Positions 43,634 to 59,808 of a stretch of DNA of 64,000 nucleotides are shown in pieces. The stretch is taken from contig NZ_JASHIK010000011.1 of the NCBI RefSeq assembly GCF_030733745.1, forward strand, positions 1 through 64,000. The letters are read 5' to 3'. The stretch's first letter is position 1, and the number at the start of each line of letters is the position of its first letter. Origin of the DNA: Stappia sp. MMSF_3263. GTDB lineage: Bacteria > Pseudomonadota > Alphaproteobacteria > Rhizobiales > Stappiaceae. A model generated the notes under the pieces. That model did no database searches. It worked only from the letters and a program-made list of their open reading frames with translations, and had not been told where the DNA came from. The translations under genes were made by a program, and so were the position numbers.

Positions 43634-43637
43634 CGGA

Positions 43638-44441
43638 TCAACCTCCCGCTGCGACGGTTGTGCCGGCGAAGCTGCGCGCGACGAGAAGCAGGATCCAGGT
43701 CGCGAGGCCGAGGACCACGGAGAGCGCCGAGGCCATGGCGATGTTCGCCGACAGGGTGAACTCGGTGTAGATGACCATCGGCAGCACATCGATGTCGGTC
43801 GCCAGCGTGAAGGCGGTGCCGAAGGCTCCCATGGCGGTGGCGAAGGCAATGGCGCCGGCGGCGACGAGCGAGGGGGCAAGGCCCGGCAGGATGACGTCGA
43901 CAACGATGCGCCAGGGCGAGGCGCCGAGCGTGCGCGCGGCCTCCTCCAGCGACGGATCAAGCTTTTCCGTCGCCGCCATGACGGTGAGCAGCACCCGGGG
44001 GATGGAAAAGTAGAGATACCCCAGGAACAGTCCCGTCAGCGAATAGGCGAAGACGACATGGCCGGGCAACAGGGTGTTGAACAGACCCTGGCGGCCGCCG
44101 AGCAGGATGATCAGGAAGCCGATCACCACACCGGGAAAGGCCAGCGGCAGCGTCAGGATCGACAGCAGCGCGCCGCGACCGGGGAAGCGGTTCCTGGCAA
44201 GGAACAGCCCGGCCGTGGTCGAGATCGCCAGCGCCGTCAGGGCGACGGCGAAGGAGACCAGCACGGTTTGCAGCAGCGTTTGCAAGTAGCGCGGCGTCTG
44301 CAGGATCTGGAGGTAGATGCCCCAGCCCTCGGCGCTTTCCCCCGAAGCCTGGACCAGGCGGACGATGGGCAGGGCGAGGAAGGCCATCGAGAAGACGGCC
44401 AGCGGCAGCAGGCACAGGGCAACGAAGATGCGATTTGTCAT
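43638..44441 (-). CDS. ABC transporter permease (PotB-type)
   Basis: 267 residues, six predicted helices starting RIFVALCLLPLAVFSMAFLA; EAA loop EAARTLGASPWRIVVDVILP. Membrane component of the importer with the 42842 permease. Lies 77 bases after the SBP gene on the minus strand, the gap holding a hairpin. Confidence 0.9.
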   Translation of the reverse strand: MTNRIFVALCLLPLAVFSMAFLALPIVRLVQASGESAEGWGIYLQILQTPRYLQTLLQTVLVSFAVALTALAISTTAGLFLARNRFPGRGALLSILTLPLAFPGVVIGFLIILLGGRQGLFNTLLPGHVVFAYSLTGLFLGYLYFSIPRVLLTVMAATEKLDPSLEEAARTLGASPWRIVVDVILPGLAPSLVAAGAIAFATAMGAFGTAFTLATDIDVLPMVIYTEFTLSANIAMASALSVVLGLATWILLLVARSFAGTTVAAGG

Positions 44442-44467
44442 GATGGACCGTCGTGTTGCCGGACGTC

Positions 44468-44507
44468 CCCCACGCCGGTCGCGCCGCGTGGCACGGCCGG
44501 CGTGGGG
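44468..44507 (-). promoter_or_regulatory. Hairpin between SBP and permease genes (minus-strand operon)
   Basis: CCCCACGCCGG (44468-44478) pairs perfectly with CCGGCGTGGGG (44497-44507) across 18 bases, 11 bases beyond the SBP stop. Equivalent to the hairpins after the other SBP genes. Confidence 0.68.
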
Positions 44508-44518
44508 CAGGCGTCGGC

Positions 44519-45514
44519 TTACTTGACTTCGTTCAGGTAGCGTTCGCCGAAGCGGGCCTGCGCCTTTTCCATCTCCGCGTAGTCGACGGCGACGGCGCGC
44601 TCGTAGTCCTTCGCGGGAAGGAATTTGGCGGCGACTTCAGCCGGCAGCTCGACCGGTCGGGCCGGCTGCAGATAGGCGTTGGTCCAGATTGCCTGGCCTT
44701 CGTCGGAAAGGATGAAGTCAAGGACCTTCTTGCCGGTCTCCTCGTGCGGGGCTCCGGCCACGAGGCTCATCACATAGGGCACGCGGATCGAGCCCTCGCA
44801 GGGCAGGACGAACTCGAAATTGCCGTCCTCCTCGTATTTGCCGCGATAGGCGTTGAAGTCGTAGTCGAACAGGATCGGGATCTCGCCGGACACGACGCGG
44901 GCGAAGGAGGTCTGCTTGGGGACGATCGGGTCGTTCTCGGCCAGCTTGTTGAAGAACTCGATCGCCGGGTCGAAATTCGACAGGTCGCCGCCGAAGGCAA
45001 GGTTGGCCGCGACGGCGCCGGCATAGCCGACAAAGGCCGAGGACGGGTCGAGATAGCCGACGAGGCCGCGATATTCCGGTTTGGTCAGATCGGCGAAGCA
45101 TTGCGGCACCGGGGCGCCGCCAAGCGCGTCGACATTCACGAAGAAGCCGAGCGTGCCGTAGTGGATGGCGAACCACTTGCCTTCCGGATCCTTGAGGCCG
45201 GCGGGAATGTCGTCGAAGCCCTTCGGCTTGTAGGCCGTGGCGACGCCTTCGTTGCCGGCCTTGATGCCGGTGGTGACGCCGTAATAGGCGACATCGGCGA
45301 CAGGACTTGCCCGCTCCGCCAGAAGCTGGCTGAGCGTCTGGCCCGAGTTCTTGTTGTCATGCGGCATCTGCACGTCGATCTTCTCGTCGATCGCCTTCAG
45401 CATCGATGCCCAGTCGGCCCATTGCGGCGGGCAATTGTAGCAGATGGCGTCCTCGGCCTTTGCCGGAAGAACGGCTGCCATTGTCACGGCTACAGCCAGA
45501 AGTGTATGTTTCAT
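44519..45514 (-). CDS. ABC transporter substrate-binding protein (ferric/polyamine/phosphonate-like family)
   Basis: 331 residues from ATG 45514 with AGGAG upstream. Sec signal MKHTLLAVAVTMAAVLPAKA. The mature N-terminus EDAICYNCPPQWADW carries a C-x-x-C pair close to the cleavage site, unusual in this class. LFDYDFNAYRGKYEEDG and GKKVLDFILSDEGQAIWTNA fit the family 1 periplasmic fold of Fe3+ and 2-aminoethylphosphonate importers. The ligand is not readable; the phosphodiesterase in the operon hints at a phosphorus compound. Confidence 0.85.
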   Translation of the reverse strand: MKHTLLAVAVTMAAVLPAKAEDAICYNCPPQWADWASMLKAIDEKIDVQMPHDNKNSGQTLSQLLAERASPVADVAYYGVTTGIKAGNEGVATAYKPKGFDDIPAGLKDPEGKWFAIHYGTLGFFVNVDALGGAPVPQCFADLTKPEYRGLVGYLDPSSAFVGYAGAVAANLAFGGDLSNFDPAIEFFNKLAENDPIVPKQTSFARVVSGEIPILFDYDFNAYRGKYEEDGNFEFVLPCEGSIRVPYVMSLVAGAPHEETGKKVLDFILSDEGQAIWTNAYLQPARPVELPAEVAAKFLPAKDYERAVAVDYAEMEKAQARFGERYLNEVK

Positions 45515-45548
45515 GACGGTGACTCCTGAGGGAAAATGCGTTCTCGGG

Positions 45549-46625
45549 TTACTGGTTCGACGGTGGAGAAGTTGCAGCTTCTCCGCCGTCACTCTTCCCG
45601 GCGGACGGAGGCCCGAGACTGCCGCCTTGCCGGAAACTGAAAGTGTGCGCCGGGTCGGGCCGACCGGGCGGTTCAAGACCTGCCAACCGGGCCAGAACGG
45701 TCTGGGCGGCGCCGCGGCCCATGGCCTTGGGGTCGGTGACCACCGTCGACAGGTTGGGCTCGACCATCAGGCCCGTCGAGATCCCGTCGAAACCGACGAT
45801 CGAAAGATCCGCGGGAACCTGCATGCCAAGGTCCCGCGCCGCCTTCATCGCCGCCAGTGCGAGATAGTCGTTGGAGGCGAATATTCCGGTGATGCCACGG
45901 TGCTCGGCAAGCATCGCGCCAAGCAGCTGAAGCAGCCGGCCTTCCTGCTCCTCGATCTCAAGGAGCACCGGATGGGCCATGCCGAGCCGGGCGCAAGCGG
46001 CAACGAAACCTTCATAGCGCTCGCGCGAGCGGTCGGAGCGCCCGAACTCCAGCGCAAGGAAACCGGTGCAGGAATGGCCCTGCCGCGCGAAGCCCTCGGC
46101 AACCGCATCGGCCGCCCCGCGATTGTCGACGGTCCAGGCCGCGAAGCCGTCGCCGGGGCCGTTGTCGGGCGGGGTGTTGTAGACTAGGCAGCACGGGGTT
46201 CGCTTGGCGCGGATCAGCTCCAGCCCCTCGCTTGTGCGGGCATCCCCGACCGTGACGATCAGCCCGTCCACCTGTTTTGCCAGAAGCGTGCGGATCGCCT
46301 TGGTTTCCAGGCCCCCGTCATAGTCGGAGCAGGCGAGGATGAGCTGGTAGCCCGCCCGGTTGGCCTCGGCCTGGGCGGCCTGGACAACCTCGGCGAAGAC
46401 CGGATTGGCCAGAGATGGAACGATGCAGCCGATGGTCCTGGTGCTGTTGCTCTGCAGCGACCGGCCGAGATCGTTGAACTCGAAGCCGAGCGCTTCGGCG
46501 GCAGCCAGCACCTTGCTGCGTGTCTGCTCGCTCGACGAACCCTGGCCGTTCAGGACCCGGCTGACGGTCGCGATGCCGCAGCCGGCACGCTGAGCAACGT
46601 CCTTGATGGTCGGTCGACGAAGCAA
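45549..46625 (-). CDS. LacI-family transcriptional regulator
   Basis: 358 residues. HTH TIKDVAQRAGCGIATVSRVL followed by hinge helix (SKVLAAAEALGF) and a periplasmic-binding-like effector domain (TIGCIVPSLANPVFAEVVQA, GITGIFASNDYLALAAMKAA, DLSIVGFDGISTGLMVEPNL). First gene of the minus-strand transport operon (34 bases before the SBP). A perfect 16-bp palindrome lies 36 bases upstream of its start, so autoregulation is likely. The long gap between DNA-binding type (sugar-like regulator) and a PotA-type transporter is slightly unusual. Confidence 0.92.
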   Translation of the reverse strand: MLRRPTIKDVAQRAGCGIATVSRVLNGQGSSSEQTRSKVLAAAEALGFEFNDLGRSLQSNSTRTIGCIVPSLANPVFAEVVQAAQAEANRAGYQLILACSDYDGGLETKAIRTLLAKQVDGLIVTVGDARTSEGLELIRAKRTPCCLVYNTPPDNGPGDGFAAWTVDNRGAADAVAEGFARQGHSCTGFLALEFGRSDRSRERYEGFVAACARLGMAHPVLLEIEEQEGRLLQLLGAMLAEHRGITGIFASNDYLALAAMKAARDLGMQVPADLSIVGFDGISTGLMVEPNLSTVVTDPKAMGRGAAQTVLARLAGLEPPGRPDPAHTFSFRQGGSLGPPSAGKSDGGEAATSPPSNQ

Positions 46626-46763: not shown

Positions 46764-47759
46764 CTACCGGCCGTCGATCAGCGCCAGCGCCGTCTGCTCG
46801 TCGGTGATCAGGGTGGAGGGCTGCAGCGCCTTGATGCAGGCGCGCATGATCACGTGCTTCTCGGGACCGCCGGAGATCAGCACCTTCTTGCGGATGCGGG
46901 CCAGCCTGTCGAGGGGCAGCGCCAGGGTGCGGCGGTTGACCTCGTGGTCAACGAGACGGCCGTCCTTGTCGATGAAATTGTAGAGCACGTCGCCGACGGC
47001 GCCGGCCGCGGCCAGCGACAGCCGCTCCGCCTCCGACAGGTGCCCCAGCCGGTAGGACGTCGTCAGGCTGGCGATGCCACCACAGGACAGGAGAGCGACA
47101 TCGCTCGCCTCCGCCATTTGCAGGATCTGGTCGAGGCCGCAATGTTCCAGCAGCGCGTGGCGCGTCTGCGGGCTGTCGACCAGCGCCGGCGCGGGCACGA
47201 GAAAGCCTTCCGCATCGAAAAGTTCGGCGAACTGCCAGGCGAATTCGGCCGGGTTGAAGCGCTTCGCCTGGGCGATGCCGCCAAGCAGGGAGACGATGCG
47301 GACATTGTCGAGCGGCTTGCCCTCGATATGGGACAGCGTCGCGTGCAGGGTGCGGCCCCAGCCGACGCCGACCGTCATGTTGTTGGCCATGATCGAGGAG
47401 ACGTGTTCGCCCGCGGTCGCCGCGATCACGCGCGTGGGATCGCCCGCCGGGTCGGAGAAGGGGGCGACAATGGCGCGGTCGAAGCCGAACGCCTTTTCCA
47501 GCTTGCGCTGCAACTCGACGATCGGGCCGAGGCTGGACTTGATCCGGATGACCACCTCGCCGCGTCGCCTCGCCTCCGACAGCAGCCTCGTGACGGCGAC
47601 GCGATTGACGCCGAGCGTCTGGGCGACCTCGTTCTGCGTGCGGCCCTCAATGTAGTAGATCCAGGCAGCGCGGATCCGCAGCTGCAGATTCGGATCGCCC
47701 GGCGATTGCAACGGGCTGTCGACGACAGGCGTGTCCCGCTTCCCCAGCACTTCCGCCAC
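46764..47759 (-). CDS. SorC/DeoR-type sugar-binding transcriptional regulator
   Basis: 331 residues from GTG 47759, which has GGGAG six bases upstream (TTG 47774 is an alternative). HTH at about 25-60 (IRAAWIYYIEGRTQNEVAQT, GVNRVAVTRLLSEARRRGEV) and a sugar-phosphate-isomerase-like effector domain (VGVGWGRTLHATLSHIEG, RIVSLLGGIAQ, DVALLSCGGIAS, VLISGGPEKHVIMRACIKAL). The family senses phosphorylated sugars or polyols. It is the last gene of the dehydrogenase-complex operon and the natural candidate for the TGTTCA dyads at 52632-52786. Confidence 0.9.
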   Translation of the reverse strand: MAEVLGKRDTPVVDSPLQSPGDPNLQLRIRAAWIYYIEGRTQNEVAQTLGVNRVAVTRLLSEARRRGEVVIRIKSSLGPIVELQRKLEKAFGFDRAIVAPFSDPAGDPTRVIAATAGEHVSSIMANNMTVGVGWGRTLHATLSHIEGKPLDNVRIVSLLGGIAQAKRFNPAEFAWQFAELFDAEGFLVPAPALVDSPQTRHALLEHCGLDQILQMAEASDVALLSCGGIASLTTSYRLGHLSEAERLSLAAAGAVGDVLYNFIDKDGRLVDHEVNRRTLALPLDRLARIRKKVLISGGPEKHVIMRACIKALQPSTLITDEQTALALIDGR

Positions 47760-47814
47760 GCACAACTCCCGCAAGGATGGAACGGCCCGCCGGTCCGGCG
47801 CGCCAATCCTGCTA

Positions 47815-49203
47815 TCATTTCATGTCGGCAAACAAAATACCAATCTGCCCGGCAAGCTCGATGTGAGGCAGGTGCCCTGCATTCTCGAACAGGTTCAGCG
47901 ATATCCGCCCGGGCGCGCGCAGCGCGTGGGACCAGGGAATGATGCGGTCGCGCTTGCCCCAGATGATGCGGGTCGGAAGCTCGATCCGATCGAGTGCCGC
48001 GGCGATGGAGAACGCCTGCACCCCGTCGGGGAAGAGATGGCCGGCGAGATCGGCCTGGGCCGCGCGCAGGGCGGGATCGGCACGGGCGAGCATGACCGAG
48101 CGGACATAGTTCGAGGTGATCGTCTCCTCGTCGGCCGGCAGCAGCTTGAGCCAGGGGGCAAGGCTTTCGGCACGTGTCGCACGCGCAATGCCGGCAAGCG
48201 CCGGGCCGTTGATTTCCGGTCCCAGACCCGCCGGGTTGAAAAGCGTCAGCGAGGCGATCCGGCGCGCGCGGGTGTCGGCCAGCGCGGCCGCGACAGCCCC
48301 GCCGAGGGAATGGCCGACGAGATGCGCCTGCTGAAGGCCAAGCCCGTCGAAGGCCTGCCGCATGTCGCGCACCAGTTCGGCGAAAGACGCGATCCGGCGC
48401 CGGGGCGAACGGCCATGGGAGGGGAGTTCGATCCGGTAGACCGGGTGCCCTGTCGGCAGGCTCGCCAGAAGCGGGGCCCAGCTGGCGCCGTCGCTGGCAA
48501 AGCCGTGCAACAGGACGATGGGGGTCTTGTCGCCCTTGCCGGAGCGCAAGACCGAAAGCGGCCCGGCTTCCGGGCTCCAGTGAAGAGGGGCGGCGGACGC
48601 GGTTTCAGGCCGGGACAGCGCCTCCAGATGGCGCGCGACGTCCCCGGCCTGGATGCGGCCGCGCGGACCGTTGCCGTCGATCGCCGCTATCTCCAGGCCG
48701 TTGTCCCGCGCGAGCCTGCGTGCCTTGGGCGTTGCGCGGGGCAGCGTTCCCCGGGGAGGGACCGCGTGGGACAGCGCCGCAGGGAGAGCGGAGCCGACAC
48801 CCGAAGGCGCCGGCTCCGGAGTCCGCTTGGCGGGCTCTTCCGGGGAGGAAGGGGCGGGAGGGCGCGCTTTGCCGGACATTCCGTCGTCGCTGGCCGAGGC
48901 CTGGGGGCCGTGGTCGTCATTGGTACCGCCCGCCGTACCGTCGGGGCGCGGACCGACGGCCTCGCCATCGGCATAGATCCAGGCGACGGGTTGGCCGATC
49001 GCGACTTCCGAGCCGGCCTCGGCGATCACATGGTGGAGCGTTCCGGAGGCGGGGCTTTCAACTTCCATCGCCGCCTTGTCGGTCTCGATGTCGAACAGGG
49101 CCTCGGATTTCTCCACCCGGGCGCCGGCCTCGACATGCCACACGGCGATGCGGCCGCTCGCCATGTCCATGTCGACCTTCGGCATGATGACTTCGACGGG
49201 CAT
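47815..49203 (-). CDS. Lipoyl / E3-binding / alpha-beta hydrolase protein (AcoC-like E2 without acyltransferase)
   Basis: 462 residues from ATG 49203. Residues 1-78 are a lipoyl domain with Lys43 in [11 protein letters not shown] Pro/Ala/Ser-rich linker follows (about 80-155), then a peripheral-subunit-binding domain at 157-190 ([24 protein letters not shown]). Residues 225-462 are an alpha/beta hydrolase ([12 protein letters not shown], nucleophile Ser299 in [26 protein letters not shown]). There is no 2-oxo-acid acyltransferase domain (no DHRxxDG-like motif). This layout matches the AcoC subunit of acetoin dehydrogenase complexes. It overlaps no neighbour and lies directly behind the E1 beta gene. 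It should carry the acyl group on lipoate; the hydrolase may release or transfer it. Confidence 0.85.
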
Positions 49204-49204
49204 C

Positions 49205-50233
49205 TCAGACGCGCTCCCCGGCAAGCGCGCGGGCGGCCTGAAGAATGTCGGGCACCTGGGGTACGGCAGCCCGCTCGAGATCGGGGTTGTAGGGGATCGG
49301 GCATTCGGCCCCGCCAAGGCGGACGATGGGCGCGTCGAGATAGTCGAAGGCATCGCTCTCGGCGACCATGGCGCTGATCTCCGCGCCGATGCCGAGCGTC
49401 TTGACGCCTTCGTAGACGCAGAGCAGCCGCGATGTCTTGCGCACGCTGCCGAGCACCGTTTCCCGGTCGATGGGGCGGATCGTCCGCAGGTCCACGACCT
49501 CGGCCTCAATGCCTTCACCGGCCAGCGTTTGCGCTGCTTCCAGCGCCTTGTGCACCATGATGGAGGTCGCGACGATGGTCAGGTCGGTGCCCTTGCGGCG
49601 GATCGCGGCCTTGCCGATCGGGGTCAGGTAATGCCCCGCCGGCACCTCGCCCTTCATCTTGTAGAGGAGCTTGTGCTCGAAGATGAGCACCGGGTCGGGG
49701 TCCTCAAGTGCTGCCAGCAGCAGTCCCTTGGCGTCTTCCGGCGTCGAGGGCTGCACCACCTTCAATCCCGGGACATGGGCGAACCATGCTTCCAGGCTCT
49801 GGCTGTGCTGGGCGGCGGCTCCCGTTCCCGAGCCCGCCGGCATGCGCATCACCACCGGCACGGAAACGGCGCCGCCGAGCATGTAACGCACCTTGGCGGC
49901 CTGGTTGACGATCTGCTCCATGGCCAGCGTGGCGAAGTCGGAAAACTGGAACTCGAAGATCGGGCGCAGCCCCGTCATCGCCGCGCCGACGGCGACGCCC
50001 GCACCGCCCAGTTCGGAGATCGGCGTGTCGATGACCCGGTCGGTTCCGTATTTGTGGACGAGGTCGCCGGTGACCTGGAACGCGCCGCCATAGACGCCGA
50101 TGTCCTCGCCCATCAGCACGACGCGCTCGTCGGCGGCCAGCGCGATGTCCATCGCCTCGCGAATGGCTTCGGCATAGGAAAGCTCGCGCGTTTCCTGCTC
50201 GGGCCGGGCAAGGGTTCCCGCATCCATGTTCAT
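49205..50233 (-). CDS. Thiamine-diphosphate dehydrogenase E1 beta subunit (acetoin dehydrogenase AcoB-like)
   Basis: 342 residues from ATG 50233. Hallmarks of transketolase-type beta subunits: [100 protein letters not shown] (His in QHSQ). It forms an alpha2-beta2 E1 with the next gene upstream on this strand. Overlaps that gene by 4 bases. Confidence 0.9.
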
Positions 50234-51240
50234 TGCACTGCTTCCGTGTAGACGTCGCGCGTGACCTCGGCGACCTTCGGGTTCTCGCCGGTCTTGGCGA
50301 ACTCGATCGCCTCGGCGATCTCGCGATCTGCGCCGGCCTCGAGCCCGGCGATCTCCTCGCGCGTTGCGATGCCGTGCTCGACCAGCATGTCCGCCATGCG
50401 GGTAATCGGGTCGCGCGCCATCCAGTCGGCGATCTCTTCCTTGCTGCGATAGCGGTTGCGGTCCGACTTGGAATGGCCGCGCCAGCGATAGGTCATGGAT
50501 TCCACCAGCGACGGACCCTCGCCGGCCCGGGCACGGGCGACGGCCGCGTCCATCGCCTCGCTGACGGCGGAGAAGTCGTTGCCGTCGACGGTCACGCCGG
50601 GCATCGCATAGGCGTCGGCGCGGGTGGCGATGCGCCTGACCGCGGTCGAGCGCTCCGTCGAGGTCGACATGCCGTACTTGTTGTTCTCGCAGACGAAGAC
50701 GACGGGCAGTTTCCAGATGGCGGCCATGTTCAGCGCCTCGTGGAATGCACCCTCGTTGTTGGCGCCGTCGCCGAAGAAGCAGACGGTGACCGCGCCGGTG
50801 CCCAGGCGCTTGGCGGACAGGGCCGCGCCGACGGCGATCGGCAGGCCGCCGCCGACAATGCCGTTGGCGCCCAGGTTGCCCTTTTCCACGTCGGCGATGT
50901 GCATCGATCCGCCGCGGCCGCGGCAATAGCCGCTTTCCTTGCCGAAGAACTCGGCGAACATCCGCGACACGTCGGCGCCCTTGGCGACGCAGTGCCCGTG
51001 TCCGCGATGGGTGGAGGTGATCTTGTCGGCGTCTCCCAGCGCCATGCAGGCGCCGACGGCACTTGCCTCCTGGCCGATCGACAGGTGCATGGTGCCGTGA
51101 ATGAGGCCGCGCGTGTAGCTCTCCTCGGCGCCTTCCTCGAACTTGCGGATCAGATACATCTTGCGCAAGGCCGCCTTCAACTCGTCAGGCGTGTAGCGGG
51201 CGATGGCGAAGGGGGTGTTCTCCGGCAGCAGGTCAGGCAT
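50230..51240 (-). CDS. Thiamine-diphosphate dehydrogenase E1 alpha subunit (acetoin dehydrogenase AcoA-like)
   Basis: 336 residues from ATG 51240; the longer frame is a shadow of the preceding gene. ThDP/Mg motif [53 protein letters not shown], and the phosphorylation-loop-like [16 protein letters not shown]. The size is that of acetoin or 2-oxo acid E1 alpha proteins. Oxidatively cleaves an acyloin or decarboxylates a 2-oxo acid and passes the acyl group to lipoate of the 47815 protein. Overlaps the SAF dehydrogenase gene by 8 bases. Confidence 0.9.
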
Positions 51241-52576
51241 TGACGAACTCCCGGGCGGCTTTCCCGAACAGCATCTCGTCCTGGCGCGCGCGCAGGGCGG
51301 CGATGCGGGAGTTCGCCGGAACCTCGGCATTGGCGTAGGTGATGAGCTCGCCCTTGCGGATCGGTGCGGTGACCCTTGCACCGGTCAGCAGGCCGCAAGG
51401 GATCGCGCCGGCAGTCCGCGCCTCGCCGGCCTCCATGATCCAGGCCCGGTAACAGTACTCGCCGATCTGGTCGAGGATCTCGCCGGGGACGAGGTCCTTC
51501 TTGGCGACGGCCGCCACCTCGGCCGTCGGCCGGTCGAGCGGAACCATGTCGGCCTTGCCGTAGAGAACGGCGCGGGCGCAGGTCAGCGGAACCTCGAGCG
51601 AGGTCAGGTGGTAGGGGCGGATGAAGGTGAAGTAGGGGCCTTCGCCCATCTTCAGGTCGCTCATGCGCTCCCAGACGCGGGGATGACGCATCTCGGCAAC
51701 GACGAAGACGCCGGGGGCGAGACCCTCGCCGACGGAGTAGTCGACACGGCCGGGACCGGAGAGGAAGCCGCCATCGGCCTGCGGGATCAGGACCTTCGAC
51801 AGGTCCTTCGGTCCGGCAGCGGGGCCGTGCATGCCCGGTTTGTCCGGGACAAGGCCGGTGGCGTTGGCGATGGCGGCCATCTCCACCATCGTCTTGGACC
51901 CGTCGACGAACTCGACCAGCATGCGCGCGTTCATGTTGCGGGCCTTCGCCTCGGCGGTATAGGCGTCCGGGGTGGCGTCGATGTTGAGCGGGTTGTTCTT
52001 GCCCTTGCCGGCGGACACGATCGTGTGGCCCATCGCGGAGACGAACTCGATCAGCTCCATGCAGGAGGAGGGCTCGTCGCCCGCGCCGAGGGAATAGACG
52101 ACGCCAAGGCGCTCTGCCTCCGCCTTCAGGAAGGCGCCGATGGTGACGTCGGCCTCGACATTCATCATCACCAGATGCTTGCCGCGCTCCATGGCGGCAA
52201 GGCCCAGTTCCGCGCCGACGGAGGGGACGCCGGTCGCATCGATGACAACGTCGATCAGCCCGCTTTCGAAGATCTGCGCCGCATCGGAGGCAATGGCCGT
52301 GCGGCCGCGCTCTATCAGTGCGTTGAGGTCGTCGGTCGACTTGCAGTCGGCCGAGTGTCCCGCCTCGCCATGGGCGATCTCGACCGCCCTGTGTGCGGCT
52401 TGCGGGGTCAGGTCGGCGATGGCGGCCACGTCGATGCCGTCCATGAGCGCGGCGCGCGTGACGATGTCGGTGCCCATCTCGCCGCAGCCGATCAGGCCGA
52501 TACGGACCGGCTTTCCCGCGTCCTGGCGCTGCCTGAGATCCCGCGCCAGACCGGTCGGCGCAACATTGCTTGTCAT
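51233..52576 (-). CDS. NAD(P)-dependent dehydrogenase with C-terminal SAF domain (homoserine dehydrogenase-like)
   Basis: 447 residues. Rossmann start VRIGLIGCGEMGTDIVTRAA, VVIDATGVPSVGAELGLAAM and MNVEADVTIGAFLKAEAERL; the C-terminal third has DLVPGEILDQIGEYCYRAWI and a SAF-like end (RVTAPIRKGELITYANAEVP). This architecture corresponds to the group usually called predicted homoserine dehydrogenase with SAF domain, often misnamed FlgA. The true substrates are mostly unknown; branched or C4-C5 polyol acids are candidates. It is the promoter-proximal gene of the minus-strand operon with the E1/E2 genes, so it probably generates the acyloin or keto acid that the complex cleaves (inference). Confidence 0.82.
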   Translation of the reverse strand: MTSNVAPTGLARDLRQRQDAGKPVRIGLIGCGEMGTDIVTRAALMDGIDVAAIADLTPQAAHRAVEIAHGEAGHSADCKSTDDLNALIERGRTAIASDAAQIFESGLIDVVIDATGVPSVGAELGLAAMERGKHLVMMNVEADVTIGAFLKAEAERLGVVYSLGAGDEPSSCMELIEFVSAMGHTIVSAGKGKNNPLNIDATPDAYTAEAKARNMNARMLVEFVDGSKTMVEMAAIANATGLVPDKPGMHGPAAGPKDLSKVLIPQADGGFLSGPGRVDYSVGEGLAPGVFVVAEMRHPRVWERMSDLKMGEGPYFTFIRPYHLTSLEVPLTCARAVLYGKADMVPLDRPTAEVAAVAKKDLVPGEILDQIGEYCYRAWIMEAGEARTAGAIPCGLLTGARVTAPIRKGELITYANAEVPANSRIAALRARQDEMLFGKAAREFVNA

Positions 52577-52889
52577 AACGCATGCCCTCGAAACTGTGAT
52601 GGCCCGTTTAAACAGAACTTTCGTTCAATGGTCAACATATATGTTCAGATAGGGATTCAATCATGCGAATATTGGTGCGTTGCAGCAATTTTGTATCTCC
52701 AGAAATCTCGTTTCCCGGCTCTGTGCAGTCTTGACAGGGGAATAGGAATGAACATTAGTGTTGTCGTAATCTCATATGTTCATATGGGTGTGGCTGATCT
52801 TGCCACGAGGAGGAGCATCGTCGACAGTCGGCCAACCGGACATGATTCAGGATCGGCCGCGGGAATTCCAATGGGAGGAAAGACAAGTG
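52577..52889. promoter_or_regulatory. Divergent promoter region with TGTTCA dyads
   Basis: 313 bases between two divergent starts, without a gene and AT-rich. Perfect palindrome AACATATATGTT at 52634-52645, extending to TCAACATATATGTTCA; near-perfect CATATGTTCATATG at 52773-52786; an inverted TGAACA at 52749-52754; and GAAC-N4-GTTC at 52614-52625. A consensus -35 TTGACA stands at 52731-52736 with a weak -10 near 52754, the TGAACA half-site lying in the spacer where it would block polymerase. Likely SorC-regulator operators controlling both operons. Confidence 0.6.
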
Positions 52890-54440
52890 ATGCAACAGAC
52901 ACTGATCTCACGCCGGTCGCTTTTGAAGTCCGGTGCCGCCGCCGGGGCGATGGGAATGTCGCTGGGCGGTGTTGCCCTGCCGGCCTTCGCGCAGTCCGAT
53001 CTGCCCGATCCCGCAAAGGTCCTCGCCGACATTTCCGTGCCCAAATACGTGCGCGCGGACTATCGCGAGCTCTACAAGATGGGCGATGCGCCGCTCTGGG
53101 ATCCGGCGATCGACTGGATCCGGACCGTCGACTGGGAGGCGGTACGCAAGGAACTGGCCGGCACGACGGTCCGTTTCGCGATTGGCGCTGCCGATCAGGA
53201 ATCCGCCGCCGAGGGGCTTGTTCCCTTCGAGCTGTTGTCCGGCATCAAGGTTGAACTGGTGCCCATCCCCGACGACAGCTTCTACGACAAGGCGCTGGCC
53301 GAGTTCATTTCCGGAAATGCGAGCTTCGATGCGCTGCAGTTCTTCTCGCCCTGGCTCGGCGATTTCGCGGCGCCCGGCTTCCTTGCCCCGCTCCAGGAAT
53401 ATGCCGACAAGTGGAAGCTGCCGCTCGACGATTTCTATGACACCTATCGCCTGAACTACGGCTATTTCAACGGCGAGATGTACGGCATTCCGTTCGATTG
53501 CGACGTGCAGATGGTGCATCTGCGTAAGGGCTATGTGGAAAAGGTCCTCGGCGGGCCGATCGACACCTGGAACTCGGTGCCCACCTATGACGAACTGATC
53601 CGCCTGTCGGGCGAGCTCAACAAGGTGGAGCCGGGCGTTTCCGGCGTTGGCCTGCTGGGCGCGCGCGGCTTCTGGTCGACCTATACCTGGGAACATGTCG
53701 CCGCTCAGGCCGGCATGATGCTGTTCGACGAGAACTGGGAGCCGGTCTTCAACGGCGATGCCGGGCAGAAGGGCCTGGAGGTGATCCTCGAACTGTCGAA
53801 GAATGCCATCGAGGGCTTTGCCGCAGCCGGCTGGGGCGAGAACCGGGCCGCCTGGCTCGGCGGGCAGGTCGCCACCAACATCAGCTGGCAGGACAGCGGC
53901 ACCCAGGCGATGCGCCCTGACCAGTCGCAGATCGTCGGCGATTTCGTCACCATCTACGAGCCGCGCATTGCCGGCGGCCGGTTCGCGCCGCCCAACATCG
54001 CCGGGTCGACCTCCTGCGTCGCGGCATCGAGCCAGAACCCGGAAGGCGCCTTCCTGATGCTCGCCTTCCTGACGACCTCGTCGATCATGGCGATGAACGA
54101 GGCCAACGCGAACGGCGTTGCGCCGGGCTACCGGTCCGTCCTGACCAACCCGGACCTGCAGAAGGTCAGCCAGCCGGCCGAGGTGTGGAGCAAGTCTCTC
54201 GACTACGCCTGGTGCGCGCCGCGTCTGCCGGGCATGTTCGAGATGGAGCAGGCGATCGGCAACGAGCTGAACCGTGCCTTTGTCGGCCAGGTCGCGGGCA
54301 AGGAGGCACTCGACAACGCCGCCGCCGCTGTGCGCAAGATCATGGATCGCAACGGTTTCTATGGCAGCCGTCCGCCGGTCGACTATGCAGCGGTCGCGCC
54401 GGGGCTCTATGTCGGCGAGGGCAAGGCACTTCCGTTCTAG
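52890..54440 (+). CDS. ABC sugar-type substrate-binding protein with Tat signal
   Basis: 516 residues from ATG 52890 (GTG 52887 adjacent), with GGGAGGAAAG upstream. Twin-arginine signal (ISRRSLLKSGAAAGAMGM) and an Ala-rich cleavage site (LPAFAQ). The family 1 extracellular fold is suggested by FDALQFFSPWLGDFAAPGFL, YGIPFDCDVQMVHLRKGYVE and ATNISWQDSGTQAM. It is longer than typical sugar-binding proteins (about 420 residues), with an N-terminal insertion near 35-90. First gene of a MalFGK-type operon that also encodes a PfkB kinase, so a sugar or polyol ligand is likely. Confidence 0.87.
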   Translation: MQQTLISRRSLLKSGAAAGAMGMSLGGVALPAFAQSDLPDPAKVLADISVPKYVRADYRELYKMGDAPLWDPAIDWIRTVDWEAVRKELAGTTVRFAIGAADQESAAEGLVPFELLSGIKVELVPIPDDSFYDKALAEFISGNASFDALQFFSPWLGDFAAPGFLAPLQEYADKWKLPLDDFYDTYRLNYGYFNGEMYGIPFDCDVQMVHLRKGYVEKVLGGPIDTWNSVPTYDELIRLSGELNKVEPGVSGVGLLGARGFWSTYTWEHVAAQAGMMLFDENWEPVFNGDAGQKGLEVILELSKNAIEGFAAAGWGENRAAWLGGQVATNISWQDSGTQAMRPDQSQIVGDFVTIYEPRIAGGRFAPPNIAGSTSCVAASSQNPEGAFLMLAFLTTSSIMAMNEANANGVAPGYRSVLTNPDLQKVSQPAEVWSKSLDYAWCAPRLPGMFEMEQAIGNELNRAFVGQVAGKEALDNAAAAVRKIMDRNGFYGSRPPVDYAAVAPGLYVGEGKALPF

Positions 54441-54449
54441 TCACCCGAA

Positions 54450-54493
54450 TCGGGGTTCGTTTCACGTCATGACAGGCCTGGAACGAACCCCGA
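54450..54493 (+). promoter_or_regulatory. Hairpin after sugar-type SBP gene
   Basis: TCGGGGTTCGTT (54450-54461) and AACGAACCCCGA (54482-54493) form a perfect 12-bp stem with a 20-base loop, starting 10 bases after the SBP stop. No T tract. Confidence 0.72.
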
Positions 54494-54525
54494 CACTCAA
54501 GAGGATGACTGGCAAGTCAATGTTT

Positions 54526-54603
54526 CCAGTGTGATCTTCAGATCTGAATTCGCGTCCGTGCTTGCTGCAGCAAGGGTCGCGAATTTCAGATCCACCACAC
54601 TGG
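54526..54603. repeat. Long nested palindrome (78 bases) in SBP-permease gap
   Basis: Three nested symmetric segments share one centre: CCAGTGTG (54526-54533) with CACACTGG (54596-54603); GATCTGAATTCGCG (54541-54554) with the reverse complement of 54578-54592 apart from one bulged base; and the perfect 14-bp palindrome CTTGCTGCAGCAAG (54561-54574) near the middle. It looks like a REP- or MITE-like unit or an extended attenuator and lies 38 bases before the permease start. Confidence 0.65.
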
Positions 54604-54641
54604 ATCGCTCCGTCAAACTTATAGCAATGCAGGTTCCCGCC

Positions 54642-55583
54642 ATGAGCGATTCGACCCTGCCGGCTTCCGGGGTGGCTCTTGCCACCCCGGTTCGCGTGGC
54701 AGTCGCAAGAAAGCGCCGCAGCAAGCGCATGCGGACACTCTTTCCCTATCTTCTCGTGGCTCCGGCGGTTCTCTACCTGCTGATGATCACCCTCTATCCG
54801 GGCGCCTATGCGGTGTACCAGAGCTTCTTCCTGGTGCGCTTCAACTCCTGGACCCCGATCGGGTTCGAGAATTATGCGGACCTGTTCGCCGACCGGGAGT
54901 TCTGGGCGGCGCTGTGGAACACGCTGGTCATCGGGGTTCTGGCGCTGGCGCTGGAATGCTTCTTCGCGCTGATGCTGGCCTATTTCGCCTATCGCGATCC
55001 CTGGGTGCAGGGCTGGCGCATCGCCTTTCTCGTGCCGATGCTGTTCATGCCTTCGGCCGTCGCCTTCATCTACAAGCTGGCCTTTCTCGATGGCCGGATC
55101 ATTTCCGACCTCCTGATGCGGGTCGGGCTGATCTCCGAGAATCTTGCGATACCGTCCTCGATCTGGCTGTCGCGGGCTACGCTGATCCTTGCCGATGTCT
55201 GGCAGTGGACGCCGTTCCTCTTCATCATCTTCGTCGCCGCGCTGCAGGGCCAGGACGAGGAAGTGGAGGAGGCCGCGCGCCTCGACGGGGCAAGCTGGTG
55301 GCAGATATTCTGGAATATCTCGCTGCCCCTGATGCGGCCGGTGATCGCGGTCGCTCTCGTCCTGCGCGGCATCGACATCACCACCATGTTCGCCAATGTC
55401 TTCATCATCACCAAGGGTGGACCGGGCGGGGCAACCGAGACGATCAGCTATTTCATCTACCGCCTCGGCTTCAAGAGCTTCAACTTCGGATATGCCTCCG
55501 CCGCCTCGGTCATCATGCTGGTGATCACCATCGTCGTCGCGCAGCTCGTGGTGAAGCGCGCCTTTCGCTCCGGGAGGACCTGA
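54642..55583 (+). CDS. ABC sugar permease, MalF/UgpA type
   Basis: 313 residues from ATG 54642 (ATG 54627 is an alternative; the frame is open upstream only across the palindrome). Six helices beginning FPYLLVAPAVLYLLMITLYP, typical MalF-type P-x-x-x-x-x-Y-P; EAA loop EEAARLDGASWWQIFWNISL. Membrane half of the sugar-type importer with the 55587 protein. Confidence 0.9.
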   Translation: MSDSTLPASGVALATPVRVAVARKRRSKRMRTLFPYLLVAPAVLYLLMITLYPGAYAVYQSFFLVRFNSWTPIGFENYADLFADREFWAALWNTLVIGVLALALECFFALMLAYFAYRDPWVQGWRIAFLVPMLFMPSAVAFIYKLAFLDGRIISDLLMRVGLISENLAIPSSIWLSRATLILADVWQWTPFLFIIFVAALQGQDEEVEEAARLDGASWWQIFWNISLPLMRPVIAVALVLRGIDITTMFANVFIITKGGPGGATETISYFIYRLGFKSFNFGYASAASVIMLVITIVVAQLVVKRAFRSGRT

Positions 55584-55586
55584 CCC

Positions 55587-56429
55587 ATGGCCTCGCAACG
55601 CGGTTCCAGGGGCGAAAGCCTGCTCGTCCGTTACCTGATCCTCACGGCATGGGCGCTGTTCTGCCTGGCGCCCGTCCTGTGGTTCCTGTCGATCGGTCTG
55701 CGCCCGCGCACCGAGATCGTCACCCCGCAACCGATCTACTGGCCGACATTCTCGCTCGATGCCTGGCACATGATCTGGTCGGACTGGCCGATGGCGGCCT
55801 ACTTGCGCAACTCGGTGCTGGCCGTCATCGGATCGGTGTTGATCGATCTGGTGCTGGCCATCCCGGCGGCCTATTCGCTGGCCCGCTACACCTATCGCGG
55901 ACGCGAGGATATCGGCTTCTACATCCTGTCGACACGGATGATGGCGCCGGCGATCGTGGCGATCCCGATCTTCTTCCTGTTCCGCAACATGGGTCTGCTC
56001 GACACGGTCTGGGCATTGATGCTGATCTATGCGGCAATCAACCTGAGCGTCGTCACCTGGATCATCCGCTCCTACATGCTCGACATTCCGAAGGAGCTGG
56101 AAGACGCCGCGCGCACGGATGGTGCCTCGGACATGCGCATTCTGTGGGAGATCATCATCCCCGCGATCCTGCCCGGCATCATCACCGCGGGGGTCATCGG
56201 CGCGATCTTCGCGATCAACGAGTTCCTGTTCACCCTGCTGATCGCCTCGACCTCGCGCGCCTACACCATGTCGGTGGCGCTGGCGAACTTCACCGGCGGA
56301 TCGGACGGCGTCATCTACAACGCGATCGCCCTGGTCGCCTTCCTCGCCTTCATTCCGGTCTTCCTGGTCGTCGTGGCGATCCAGAAACACCTCTCGCGCG
56401 GCCTGACGATGGGCGCGGTCAAGGGATAG
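55587..56429 (+). CDS. ABC sugar permease, MalG/UgpE type
   Basis: 280 residues. N-terminal helix LTAWALFCLAPVLWFLSIGL, central helices, EAA loop EDAARTDGASDMRILWEIII, and FAINEFLFTLLIAST. Starts 3 bases after the preceding permease stop. Forms the translocation pore with it. Confidence 0.92.
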   Translation: MASQRGSRGESLLVRYLILTAWALFCLAPVLWFLSIGLRPRTEIVTPQPIYWPTFSLDAWHMIWSDWPMAAYLRNSVLAVIGSVLIDLVLAIPAAYSLARYTYRGREDIGFYILSTRMMAPAIVAIPIFFLFRNMGLLDTVWALMLIYAAINLSVVTWIIRSYMLDIPKELEDAARTDGASDMRILWEIIIPAILPGIITAGVIGAIFAINEFLFTLLIASTSRAYTMSVALANFTGGSDGVIYNAIALVAFLAFIPVFLVVVAIQKHLSRGLTMGAVKG

Positions 56430-56433
56430 AGAC

Positions 56434-57489
56434 ATGGCACGTATCGAACTGACTGGCATTCAGAAGAAATGGGGCTCCGTGTGGGGCGTGCGCGATGTCG
56501 ACCTCGACATCGCCGACGAGGAACTCGTCGTGTTCCTGGGCCCTTCCGGCTGCGGCAAGACCACGACAATGCGCATGATCGCCGGGCTGGAAGATCCCTC
56601 CGACGGGGAGATCCGCATGGACGGCGAGGCGATGAACGAGGTCGACGCGCGCGACCGGGACGTTGCCATGGTGTTCCAGGGCTATGCGCTCTACCCGAAC
56701 ATGTCGATCTACGAGAACATCCGCTTCCCGCTGCGCATGCGCGGCGTGCCCAAGGCCGAGCACGACGCGCGCGTCCGGCAGGCGGCGGAGATGGTGGAGC
56801 TCGGCGACTATCTCGACCGCAAACCCGGGGCACTTTCCGGCGGGCAGCGGCAGCGCGCGGCCCTTGCCCGGGCGATCGTGCGCCAGCCGCAGGTCTTCCT
56901 GATGGACGAACCCCTGTCCAATCTCGATGCCAAGCTGCGGCAGGCGATGCGGGTGCAGATCAAGCATCTGCAGCGCCAGTTGAAGATCACCACGATCTAC
57001 GTGACGCATGACCAGATCGAGGCGATGACGCTCGCCGACCGGATCGTGATCATGGAAGGGGGGCGCGTCCAGCAGATCGGCACGCCCGACGAGATCTATT
57101 CCGATCCGGCCAACACCTTCGTTGCCGGCTTCATCGGCTCGCCGCCGATGAACCTCGTTCGCGGGCGTCTCGATGGCGGCCGGTTCACGGCACCGGGAAT
57201 CGACATCGCCGGTATCGGCATCGAGGGCGTGCGGGACATCGTGCTCGGGGTGCGGCCGGAGGATTGCCACGTGAGCGCGGACGGCGCCCATCTGTCGGGG
57301 CAGGTGTTTGGCGTCGAGCCGACCGGCGACATGACCTACCTGACGATCCGCACGGATGGCGTCAATATCGAGGTGAAGGCGGATCGCGACTACCGCTCGG
57401 AACTCGATGTCACCGAGACGGTCGCATTCGATCGCGATCGGCTCTATTTCTTCGATGGTGAAACCGGACAACGCATTCGGCAGGCATGA
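56434..57489 (+). CDS. ABC sugar-type ATPase, MalK/UgpC family
   Basis: 351 residues. Walker A GPSGCGKTT, Q-loop VFQGYALYPNMSIYENI, signature LSGGQRQRAALARAI, Walker B VFLMDEPLSNLD, H-loop YVTHDQIEAMTLAD, and a C-terminal TOBE/MalK-like domain (VLGVRPEDCHVSADGAHLSG, GDMTYLTIRTDGVNIEVKAD). Energises the sugar-type importer. ATGA overlap with the PfkB gene. Confidence 0.93.
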   Translation: MARIELTGIQKKWGSVWGVRDVDLDIADEELVVFLGPSGCGKTTTMRMIAGLEDPSDGEIRMDGEAMNEVDARDRDVAMVFQGYALYPNMSIYENIRFPLRMRGVPKAEHDARVRQAAEMVELGDYLDRKPGALSGGQRQRAALARAIVRQPQVFLMDEPLSNLDAKLRQAMRVQIKHLQRQLKITTIYVTHDQIEAMTLADRIVIMEGGRVQQIGTPDEIYSDPANTFVAGFIGSPPMNLVRGRLDGGRFTAPGIDIAGIGIEGVRDIVLGVRPEDCHVSADGAHLSGQVFGVEPTGDMTYLTIRTDGVNIEVKADRDYRSELDVTETVAFDRDRLYFFDGETGQRIRQA

Positions 57490-58433
57490 CCACATTCGAT
57501 TACACCTCGATGGGCTTCTACACGTTCGACTGTCTGTGTCGGCCCGTGAACGAGATCCCGCCCGGCGGAAACACGTCCTTCGTCGAGGAATTCACGATCG
57601 CCGTTTCGGGCGCCGCGGGCAGTGCCGCGATCGTCGCCGCCAAGCACGGGCTGAAGGTCCAGGCGGTCGGCGGTGTCGGTGAGGATGACATGGGTGACTG
57701 GGTTCTGGCGAAGCTCGCGCGGTTCGGCGTCGACGTCGCCAACATGGAGCGCTGCAGCGGCTTCACCACGTCGTCCTCGATCGTCACCACCCGGGCCAAC
57801 GGGCAGCGCCCGGCACTGCACAAGCGCGGGGCGACGGCGGGCTTTTATGTCACGGACGACCGCGTCGAACGCGTGCTCGACACGAAGATCTTTCATGTCG
57901 GCGGCGTCGGGCTGATGGACCGGATGGATCAGGGCCGTACCGCCGAGATCATGGCGGCGGCAAAGGCGAAAGGCTGCCTGACGACGCTCGACGTCTTCGC
58001 CTCGACCTCCGACGACATGCCCTTGATCGCGCCGCTGCTCAGCAACACCGACTATTTCATGCCCTCCGAAGAAGAGGCCATGGCGCTGTCGGGAATGACG
58101 GACTTCGAGGACATTGCCAGCTTCCTGCTCGACCAGGGCACCGGCGCGGTGATCCTGACGCTCGGCGAGAAGGGGGCGATGTATCGCGACCGCTCGGGAC
58201 GGCGCATCGACATCCCCGCCTACCGGATTGATGTCGTGTGCACCTGCGGCTGCGGCGACTGTTTCAACGCGGGCTTTGCCACCGGCCTGCATCTTGGCCG
58301 AACGGTCGAGGACTGCGTCCGGCTGGGGCAGGCAAGCTCCGCCCAGAACGCCATGGGGCTTGGCTCGCAGGCGGTGGTGAGTTCGCTCGAAGAGACCTTG
58401 CAGTTCATGGACAGGACGCCGTTGATATCCTAA
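57486..58433 (+). CDS. PfkB-family carbohydrate kinase
   Basis: 315 residues, ribokinase fold. PGGNTSFVEEFTIAVSGAAG is the substrate-loop signature with the conserved glycines; VILTLGEKGAMYRDR precedes the C-terminal signature CTCGCGDCFNAGFATGL. The catalytic Asp of G-x-G-D is kept, but the usual D-T before it is C-T. Two additional cysteines make the signature unusually Cys-rich. It phosphorylates the imported sugar or polyol with ATP. Its 4-base overlap with the ATPase gene ties it firmly to the transporter. Confidence 0.9.
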   Translation: MTTFDYTSMGFYTFDCLCRPVNEIPPGGNTSFVEEFTIAVSGAAGSAAIVAAKHGLKVQAVGGVGEDDMGDWVLAKLARFGVDVANMERCSGFTTSSSIVTTRANGQRPALHKRGATAGFYVTDDRVERVLDTKIFHVGGVGLMDRMDQGRTAEIMAAAKAKGCLTTLDVFASTSDDMPLIAPLLSNTDYFMPSEEEAMALSGMTDFEDIASFLLDQGTGAVILTLGEKGAMYRDRSGRRIDIPAYRIDVVCTCGCGDCFNAGFATGLHLGRTVEDCVRLGQASSAQNAMGLGSQAVVSSLEETLQFMDRTPLIS

Positions 58434-58474
58434 TCTTGGCTCCCGTCCCCGGGCTGCCATTCAGAGTTCGTGAC

Positions 58475-59180
58475 ATGTTGCCAGCGCCGAAAATCCCGAG
58501 ATTGCAGGACCTTGCCCTTCCGCTTCGCGATATCATGCGCGGCGCGATGGCGCTGGAGGCCGATACCCGCTCACGGCTCGATCCGGCCAAGCGCCATATT
58601 CCCCCGGGCCTTCGCCGGCTGCTGAGCTCGGTTGCCGACGCGGGCGAGGGGGTTCATGCCGCCCGTCTTGCGGAACATGCGCCCTCGCGCGCGGACGTGG
58701 CGCGCGCGGCCCGCGACATCGCGACCTGGGACAGCGATTGCGATCCGGCGAATTTCGGTCATGTCGCGGCTCATGCCCTGACGCGGGCGCTCGGCGATGT
58801 GCGCCTTCTGGTCAGCGAGACGGTGGCGGCGCTCGTCTTTTCGCAGGTCGCAGCCCGCGCCTCGGCCCTTGATGCGGATGTCGCAGCGGCCGAACTGCTG
58901 CTGGCGCTCGAGGCTCACCATGTCGCGGGGCTGGCACCGGGAGTCGAGGGGGCCTTGCGCGCAGGTCCGCACCGCCGTGACCGGTCTTGTTCTGTGGTTG
59001 ATGGCCGAAAGGCCGCACGCGCCCGACACGGAGGAGCGGTTGCTCGATCTGTCGCTTGCCGTCGCGCGGGCGATCGAGCCGGATATGTCGGTGGCATCGG
59101 GCGACAGTTCTCGCCGGAATGCCATTGCCGACGCGGCCGCGCTGGCACCCGTTCTGCGCCGCCATGCGGGCGTGATCTGA
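58475..59180 (+). pseudogene. Frameshifted gene of unknown function (C-terminal frame change near 58955-58965)
   Basis: The frame from ATG 58475 (MLPAPKIPRLQDLALPLRDI) reads as a helical, Ala/Leu-rich protein to about 58960 (HHVAGLAPGVEGALRA), then turns into Arg/Gly-rich shadow. A second frame supplies the natural continuation (AQVRTAVTGLVLWLMAERPH) and stops at 59180, seven bases before the next start. The switch occurs in a GCGCGC run. Losing one GC dinucleotide (or gaining one base) explains it. A joined product would have about 235 residues. I do not recognise the family. It may be a true broken gene or a sequencing error. Confidence 0.65.
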
Positions 59181-59187
59181 GGCCGTC

Positions 59188-59808
59188 ATGACCGGTTCCG
59201 CACTCGATGTATCCCAGGCGGATCGCCAGCCGATTCGCCGCGCCATCCGGCGCCTGCGATGGTTCGTCGGCTCCTTTTCCAGCCAACTCGACGAGATTAC
59301 GCGGGAGACCGGCGTTGTGTTCTCGCTCGACGAGCAGCGGCTGGCGGACGTGTTCATGGCGTGGCTGCGCGATTTCGAGGCGCAGAAGCCGCAGGATCCG
59401 CGCGACCGGAAGTCCTATGTCGGGTTTGCCGCCGGACTGATGCTCCGCAATCTCATGAGCAAAAAGCCCGTTGCCGTGGTGTCCTCGCCCGTCGATGCGG
59501 ACAAGACCAATCCGGCCTATTACTGGCCGGAAGGCTATGCCTATGTCGCCTATTGCCTGAATGTGCGCTCGGCCGTGCTGGAGCAGGATTTCGACGAGGC
59601 GCGCGCGACCAGTCCGGAATTCGACGAGATCAGGACCTGGTGGTCGTTCAGGGAAAACGTCGGGGAAGACCCGAACCTGGCCATCGCGTTCCTGAACGCG
59701 TTCGCCGGCGATGAGCCCGACTGGACGATGCCGGCCCTGTTCCAGTCCGGCCGTATCGCGGAGATCGCGCCGAGCTTCTATCAGGCGCGCCTTTCCGACA
59801 AGGGTTAG
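59188..59808 (+). CDS. Conserved-looking protein of unknown function
   Basis: 206 residues, no signal peptide or membrane segment. Aromatic-rich middle (NPAYYWPEGYAYVAYCLN), acidic C-terminal half, and a Trp-rich loop (DEIRTWWSFRENVGED). Codon use is like its neighbours, supporting a real gene. It starts 8 bases after the frameshifted gene ends and may work with it. I do not recognise the family. The end converges with the dehydroquinate dehydratase gene 10 bases on. Confidence 0.7.
   Translation: MTGSALDVSQADRQPIRRAIRRLRWFVGSFSSQLDEITRETGVVFSLDEQRLADVFMAWLRDFEAQKPQDPRDRKSYVGFAAGLMLRNLMSKKPVAVVSSPVDADKTNPAYYWPEGYAYVAYCLNVRSAVLEQDFDEARATSPEFDEIRTWWSFRENVGEDPNLAIAFLNAFAGDEPDWTMPALFQSGRIAEIAPSFYQARLSDKG

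Follow-up and report, generated by a model that had tools for sequence, protein, structure and literature searches.

What are the genes for a sugar-type importer and kinase doing back to back with a dehydrogenase and a lipoyl-dependent complex that resembles acetoin dehydrogenase? The question is raised by positions 46764-58433 of a 64,000-nucleotide stretch of DNA from Stappia sp. MMSF_3263 (the window). A sequence-only reading had described a SorC regulator and nine structural genes on either side of a region of 313 bases, and all of them are present; Pfam and NCBIfam agree with the class it had named for each gene. Its logic of import, phosphorylation, oxidation to an acyloin, and cleavage is likewise supported by the gene content. 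What it lacked was the identity of the key enzyme: the gene and domain of its "SAF-domain dehydrogenase" are there, but the protein had not been recognised as DXR-II, and hence 2-C-methyl-D-erythritol 4-phosphate (MEP) and 1-deoxy-D-xylulose 5-phosphate (DXP) were missing from the scheme. With that identity, the cluster is probably a pair of catabolic operons that serve 2-C-methyl-D-erythritol (ME) or a closely similar branched polyol. Because the same gene order is repeated in many genomes, chance does not account for the arrangement.

By its sequence, the product of the dehydrogenase gene (51233-52576, minus strand) is DXR-II (DRL), the alternative DXP reductoisomerase family, with a SAF-like C-terminus. 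It matches PF21135, the DRL catalytic domain, with 220 bits against a cut-off of 27, together with PF03447 and PF08666; the last of these, the SAF domain, is barely past its cut-off (21.2 versus 21). The canonical DXR-I domain, PF02670, is not among the Pfam matches of the protein. Its closest solved structures, 3upl (618 bits) and 3upy (617 bits), align without gaps over residues 1-436, and 3upy is the crystal structure of Brucella abortus DXR-II (PMC3847144). According to passages of that paper, K191, K193, and T229 hold fosmidomycin in place, and presumably the substrate too, E174, F178, R320, and Y322 line the dimer cavity, and G121, H250, and V351 are typical for DXR-II. When these functional sites are checked, the window protein keeps G121, E174, F178, K191, K193, T229, H250, R320, and Y322, the sole exception being V351, which is replaced by T. 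The lesser description of the protein as a mere homoserine dehydrogenase with a SAF domain was rejected, given the PF21135, 3upl, and 3upy matches. A second PF21135 protein of the genome, on contig C11, has T193, S229, S250, W178, and T322; without F178, K193, T229, H250, and Y322, it resembles the "DLO" relatives. Excerpts of the same paper report that four such relatives failed complementation and that 11 members of the DXR-II family were functional (PMC3847144).

The identity of DXR-II makes MEP and DXP the likely intermediates and places the kinase before the dehydrogenase. ME would be taken up by the ATP-binding cassette (ABC) importer and phosphorylated to MEP by the PfkB kinase, a proposed methylerythritol kinase. 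DXR-II run in reverse would then oxidise MEP to DXP; the DXR step is listed as reversible in the part of a review that treats it (PMC13001223). DXP has the form CH3-CO-CHOH-R and so matches the acetoin pattern, that of an acyloin. The AcoAB-like E1 and AcoC-like E2 would cleave it, with the acetyl group passing to lipoate and then to CoA and with glyceraldehyde 3-phosphate released beside acetyl-CoA. In E. coli, single mutations can change the E1 of pyruvate dehydrogenase (PDH) such that DXP rises (PMC3424233). The lipoyl group would be reoxidised by a lipoamide dehydrogenase encoded elsewhere: the sequence-only reading had found none locally, which is true of the cluster genes at 46764-58433, and on contigs C22, C44, and C27 three genes score above the cut-off for lipoamide dehydrogenase. 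The SorC regulator, a candidate sensor for a pathway intermediate, would sense the pathway. We infer which compound is the substrate, which way the reaction runs, that E1/E2 act on DXP, and what SorC does.

The gene order is found far beyond Stappia. A scan of genome contigs with a DXR-II alignment gave 566 confirmed candidates, and the best 80 (70-79% identical in the best segment) were taken as loci. E1alpha and E1beta genes come after DXR-II in 66 of the 80, counting one locus (L084) that the distance rule had scored as unclustered and that was moved after inspection. Ten have none within the fetched DNA, and the remaining four are cut by contig ends, two of them showing E1alpha before the cut. 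Where at least 3.5 kb is present downstream, E1alpha, E1beta, and E2 occur together in 59 of 69 loci (58 by rule plus L084). A SorC-like gene lies within 10 kb in 46/66 E1-clustered loci versus 0/10 solo loci. At the same distance, none of the 10 solo loci has a solute-binding protein (SBP) of the window type with PfkB, a glucitol-type phosphotransferase system (PTS), a relative of hypA-D, lpdA, or lipA, whereas these are present in 18, 19, 36, 3, and 1 of the 66, respectively.

Importer and kinase modules are interchangeable (ABC plus PfkB, glucitol PTS, FGGY kinase), and each would yield a polyol phosphate. Plasmid records with less similar DXR-II, those of Pseudoroseomonas and Terrarubrum (55% identical), carry a glucitol PTS, ptsP, SorC, and DXR-II-E1-E2, with the Pseudoroseomonas IIC and IIB above the NCBIfam cut-offs for SrlA and SrlE. 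A Priestia plasmid locus has an E1-E2-E3 set, two SorC-like genes, a major facilitator superfamily carrier, DXR-II, and an FGGY kinase, a kinase also found beside DXR-II in L116 and L122. Aminobacter SR38 is a poorer fit, with DXR-II-E1-E2 between ectoine-type and polyamine-type ABC sets in a stretch where no kinase is annotated. DXR-II lies beside a glucitol PTS without E1 in Listeria innocua and Ligilactobacillus salivarius. The Ligilactobacillus locus (L020, 13907-16569) has DXR-II and this PTS beside fsa (fructose-6-phosphate aldolase) and tkt (transketolase), and a phosphoketolase gene is near DXR-II and the glucitol PTS in Enterococcus raffinosus (L119, 5082-7463); fsa plus transketolase, or phosphoketolase, are perhaps other means of splitting DXP in loci that lack E1. 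Past the cluster of Rhizobium rhododendri (L127, 16817-21323) is a thiamine operon (thiC, thiO, thiS, thiazole synthase, thiamine phosphate synthase, thiD), which fits a pathway dependent on thiamine diphosphate (ThDP). One locus retained among the solo loci (L064) comes from a genome record titled Bacillus subtilis SK6B4, yet its DXR-II is of alphaproteobacterial type, and the record is probably mislabelled or contaminated.

Some of the companion genes bear on whether ME is the substrate at all. DXR-II may have drifted to the phosphate of another branched or linear polyol, for example methylthreitol phosphate, with the same logic of import, phosphorylation, oxidation, and acyl-lipoate formation; we judge this unlikely. 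A glycerol-phosphate-oxidase-like gene lies within 10 kb in 12/66 E1-clustered loci (0/10 solo), often together with a zinc alcohol dehydrogenase gene, suggesting more than one substrate. However, the substrate-site residues match those of an enzyme that acts on DXP and MEP, and one tested paralog was presumably of the clustered type, which also speaks against such a drift. The pairing itself, a glycerol-3-phosphate dehydrogenase/oxidase-like gene with a zinc alcohol dehydrogenase and in some cases PfkB, is seen at L013 16218-18921, L015 18741-21323, L028, L033, L078, and others, and may feed a stereoisomer or an erythritol-like polyol into the same system.

A second alternative concerns the entry point. 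An imported 1-deoxy-ketose such as 1-deoxy-D-xylulose could be phosphorylated to DXP and split by E1/E2, with DXR-II merely adjusting the MEP pool. This leaves the E1/E2 chemistry unchanged, and PfkB kinases often use sugars. Yet the alternative importer is a glucitol-type PTS, a polyol family, and E1 adjoins DXR-II more often than either importer does; we regard the proposal as improbable.

The genomes also bear on whether the clustered enzyme is needed for isoprenoid synthesis. In the Stappia genome DXR-I is on contig C48 (132 bits, the sole PF02670 match of the genome) and DXP synthase (DXS) on C11 (816 bits); thus the DXR-II of the cluster is not needed for biosynthesis there. Fifty loci were chosen from the 80 (41 clustered, 9 solo) and 49 genomes were searched, L098 being left out. 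Genomes reached via a clustered DXR-II have DXR-I in 24/41 cases and a second DXR-II in 14 more, so that 38/41 have another DXR; these second copies are 62-72% identical to that of the window, and 14/14 (L099 is one) are outside E1 clusters. For genomes reached via an unclustered DXR-II, DXR-I is found in 0/8, and two of these (G042 and G044) also carry clustered copies (L118 and L117). The clustered copy is therefore normally the spare one, and an unclustered copy stands in for DXR-I.

Within the larger PF21135 family, the relatives sampled outside DXR-II do not show the association with E1. A control set of 241 alphaproteobacterial genomes, spread over families, contained 57 with PF21135. 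From the 70 places listed, 40 were chosen: those with unusual match lengths, save one on a short contig, and others taken mainly from high on the list. Of the 40 stretches, four are shorter than 14 kb. The K193/T229/H250 triad is absent from 39 of the 40, and an E1 pair is nearby in 0/39; with six earlier cases, non-DXR-II relatives lie near an E1 pair in 0/45. The one place that bears the triad (L140) is solo, in a genome without a DXR-I match. A biosynthetic, isoprenoid-directed role for the cluster would have in its favour that DXP is made in vivo by E. coli aceE mutants (PMC3424233) and that three genomes with a clustered copy have no other DXR that was found. It is opposed by the DXS and DXR-I already in the Stappia genome and by the importer, the kinase, the lipoyl E2, and the lpdA and lipA of some genomes, which fit no such route, and it is very improbable.

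The E1/E2 complex has its own signature. E1alpha (50230-51240, minus strand), a ThDP-dependent dehydrogenase subunit, matches PF00676 with 306 bits and contains a THRGHGH motif; at 386.4 versus 393.85 it is below the cut-off of the PDH equivalog model TIGR03182. Another E1alpha of the genome, on C22, passes that model with 508.7 bits. C22 also carries another E1beta and an E3. The E1beta of the window (49205-50233, minus strand; PF02779, PF02780; NF006667 with 404 bits, cut-off 321), also ThDP-dependent, is 49% identical to the C22 E1beta. E2 (47815-49203, minus strand) has lipoyl, E3-binding, and AcoC-type alpha/beta-hydrolase domains (PF00364, PF02817, PF00561) and passes the NCBIfam acetoin dehydrogenase E2 model NF011457 (AcoC) with 353 bits versus a cut-off of 307, making it AcoC-type. 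The type of E2 varies: the window and Pseudoroseomonas have an AcoC-like E2, S. meliloti and Priestia a PDH-like one (PF00198). Either type goes by the name of acetyl transferase, and so an acetyl-CoA product fits. E1alpha of the window was aligned with 19 sequences of DXR-II clusters plus six further E1alpha; 19 cluster rows, including the window, are readable in the motif region (L018 is not). S[TN]HRGHGHC is present in 19/19 of these. HGTMHLS is likewise present in 19/19 and in 0/6 of the other E1alpha compared. Its Thr, which we take to be at the active site, is replaced by Phe in the aco, Acinetobacter, and own PDH sequences and by Leu in a Phaeobacter sequence. The THRGHGH-type motif is less exclusive: it recurs in the uncharacterised E1s of L186 and L184 and in the E1alpha of the aco locus L187, where AcoC is accompanied by a sigma-54 regulator and an NAD-kinase-like gene. 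The PDH of the genome has GYRDHGH. That the complex is an ordinary one acting on acetoin, 2,3-butanediol, or pyruvate, with a sugar importer next to it that has no part in its function, is the least likely of these explanations: although E2 passes the AcoC model and an aco locus shares the THRGHGH motif, this E1 has DXR-II as its constant neighbour (adjacent in 66/80 loci, which were chosen by DXR-II), its E1alpha has the HGTMHLS motif of the group, no AcoR or AcoX is among the ten genes at 46764-58433, and C22 carries a further E1/E3 set with an E1alpha that passes the PDH model.

How the two roles of DXR-II relate is suggested by a quick tree of 112 rows, which leaves out the fragment L011 (also omitted from the DXR-II table) and L046, L065, L086, L100, and L118, all short, cut off, or gapped. 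On it, the deep branches of DXR-II carry the clustered or importer-linked state, and solo copies arise several times within them. The solo label changes 10 times, and at least six changes are forced by well-supported branches. Support for the root split is low (33), and the deepest placements are uncertain owing to long branches, so that the direction of change should be taken as a reading rather than a result. A difference in cofactor may accompany the change. Residue 55, presumably at the end of the second beta strand, is acidic (D/E) in 76/76 readable clustered copies, with R56 in 0/76; solo copies counted by eye have the acid in 11/23 and R56 in 14/23 (SARR, STRR, and the like). An acid at 55 versus R56 would fit the use of NAD+ versus NADPH. 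With slightly less confidence than in the ME reading, we think it likely that DXR-II was a catabolic enzyme at the root, the older form, and that the biosynthetic enzymes of Brucella, Mesorhizobium, and others were recruited from it several times.

Several points weigh against the catabolic reading. The choice of ME as ligand of the binding protein and substrate of the kinase is guessed from the context. The equilibrium of the DXR reaction favours MEP, so flux toward DXP must be pulled. Within 10 kb, 28/66 E1-clustered loci have neither a window-type SBP nor a PTS (ten of these loci span less than 17.1 kb); of these, L033, L042, and L066, which were annotated, carry parts of other ABC importers. 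The link between the two halves that the sequence-only reading had drawn is seen in 37/66 loci, with ABC plus PfkB (18) or glucitol PTS (19), and was not found in those 28. No E1 pair is near DXR-II in the Listeria, Ligilactobacillus, and Enterococcus loci. No other DXR was found in three genomes with a clustered DXR-II, the metagenome-assembled genomes G013 and G034 and Limoniibacter endophyticus (G040), whose completeness is not stated; a share in biosynthesis is therefore possible in those genomes. Finally, the cofactor signature is not significant on independent pairs (6 pairs, p 0.5), and an acid at position 55 is common in non-DXR-II relatives too, for which reasons the signature is kept as a hint of NAD+ use rather than proof.

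Polyol operons with SorC regulators, of the sorbitol and erythritol type, combine SorC with an importer, a kinase or PTS, and a dehydrogenase. The window differs from these in that oxidation would fall to an isomerising reductoisomerase family and be followed by a lipoyl-dependent ThDP complex. With the acetoin dehydrogenase complex (AcoABC plus E3), it shares the E1alpha/beta pair, the AcoC-type E2, THRGHGH, and the proposed splitting of an acyloin into an aldehyde and an acetyl group; it differs in lacking AcoR and AcoX, in the linkage to DXR-II, importer, and kinase, and in the HGTMHLS of E1alpha. The Brucella DXR-II (3upl, 3upy), an enzyme of the MEP pathway for isoprenoid biosynthesis, is of the same family, and its substrate-site residues are kept; the window copy differs in its catabolic-looking operon, in a genome with DXR-I, and in its acidic residue 55, where 3upl has SARR. 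Like the window, the pRM41A locus of S. meliloti Rm41 (L015) has PfkB, an ABC set, SorC, DXR-II, E1alpha, E1beta, and E2, and it differs in its PDH-type E2, extra lpdA and lipA, and a SorC gene between the two halves.

Methylerythritol occurs in plants. It also forms in the atmosphere, as a 2-methyltetrol. Among the matches listed in a search of open-licence PMC papers (titles and abstract starts), there is no account of methylerythritol catabolism or of such a pathway. DXR-II is treated as biosynthetic in the available text of PMC3847144, in which the terms "genomic context", "catabol", and "ABC transporter" have 0 occurrences. That 2013 survey, as far as its excerpts go, found the distribution of DXR-II patternless except for enrichment among animal pathogens, with copies in genomes that lack the MEP pathway (PMC3847144), and a portion of a 2026 review still describes no defining pattern besides over-representation among certain pathogens (PMC13001223). 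If true, a catabolic origin would answer why two unrelated DXR families exist and would explain why DXR-II is distributed so patchily and why it turns up alongside DXR-I or where the MEP pathway is missing. It would add a route for the catabolism of methylerythritol, the first steps of isoprenoid synthesis run backwards, and an example of a lipoyl/ThDP complex that works on a phosphorylated sugar. It would also be a warning that a DXR-II gene alone is no evidence for isoprenoid synthesis or for a fosmidomycin target.

The remaining genes of the cluster complete this picture. The minus-strand enzyme genes overlap or almost touch, and they end with the SorC/DeoR-type sugar-binding regulator (46764-47774, minus strand), whose match to PF04198 (163 bits) marks it as having the SorC sugar-binding domain. 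The 313 bases between the divergent halves (52577-52889) are the presumed control region. An operator search over 52560-52910 gave a single 8-bp inverted repeat, 52748-52755/52776-52783, and a simple scan of the same positions gave no sigma-70-like promoter match. On the plus strand, a family 1 periplasmic SBP with a Tat-like signal (52890-54440) matches PF01547 with 87 bits and no NCBIfam family. It is followed by two ABC permeases, both PF00528 (54531-55583, with an uncertain start codon, and 55587-56429), an ABC ATPase of the UgpC/MalK type (56434-57489; PF00005; NF008653 with 434 bits, cut-off 432), and the PfkB-family kinase (57486-58433; PF00294, 132 bits), which is below the cut-off of all 22 NCBIfam models listed. 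A separate ABC importer (ATPase, two permeases, SBP) with a LacI-type regulator, named by eye, adjoins the cluster at 41808-46625 on the minus strand; it resembles the cluster importer weakly (ATPase 231 bits, permease 36 bits).

Past the kinase are two further plus-strand genes, hypA and a hypB-like reading before it, that seem to belong with the plus-strand half. The hypB-like protein (58475-59191) was recognised by eye from its S. meliloti counterpart (L015 1847-2545), and phmmer gave no hypB match in the window. Its gene is apparently split over two frames, the N-terminal part in the frame of 58427-59191 and the C-terminal part in the open reading frame 58797-59180, possibly because of a frameshift or assembly error. 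hypA (59188-59808) encodes a mostly helical protein with 141 bits to the S. meliloti hypA of L015 and no Pfam or NCBIfam match. The AlphaFold model, mostly helical as well, has good confidence (mean pLDDT 88), and since Foldseek gave no match in the PDB at E <= 0.001, no function is proposed. Relatives of hypA, among them L015 1267-1854 and 17256-17879, are often paired with hypB near DXR-II clusters, and their alignment, from which L030 was dropped as a wrong row, shows invariant W, C, E, and N residues.

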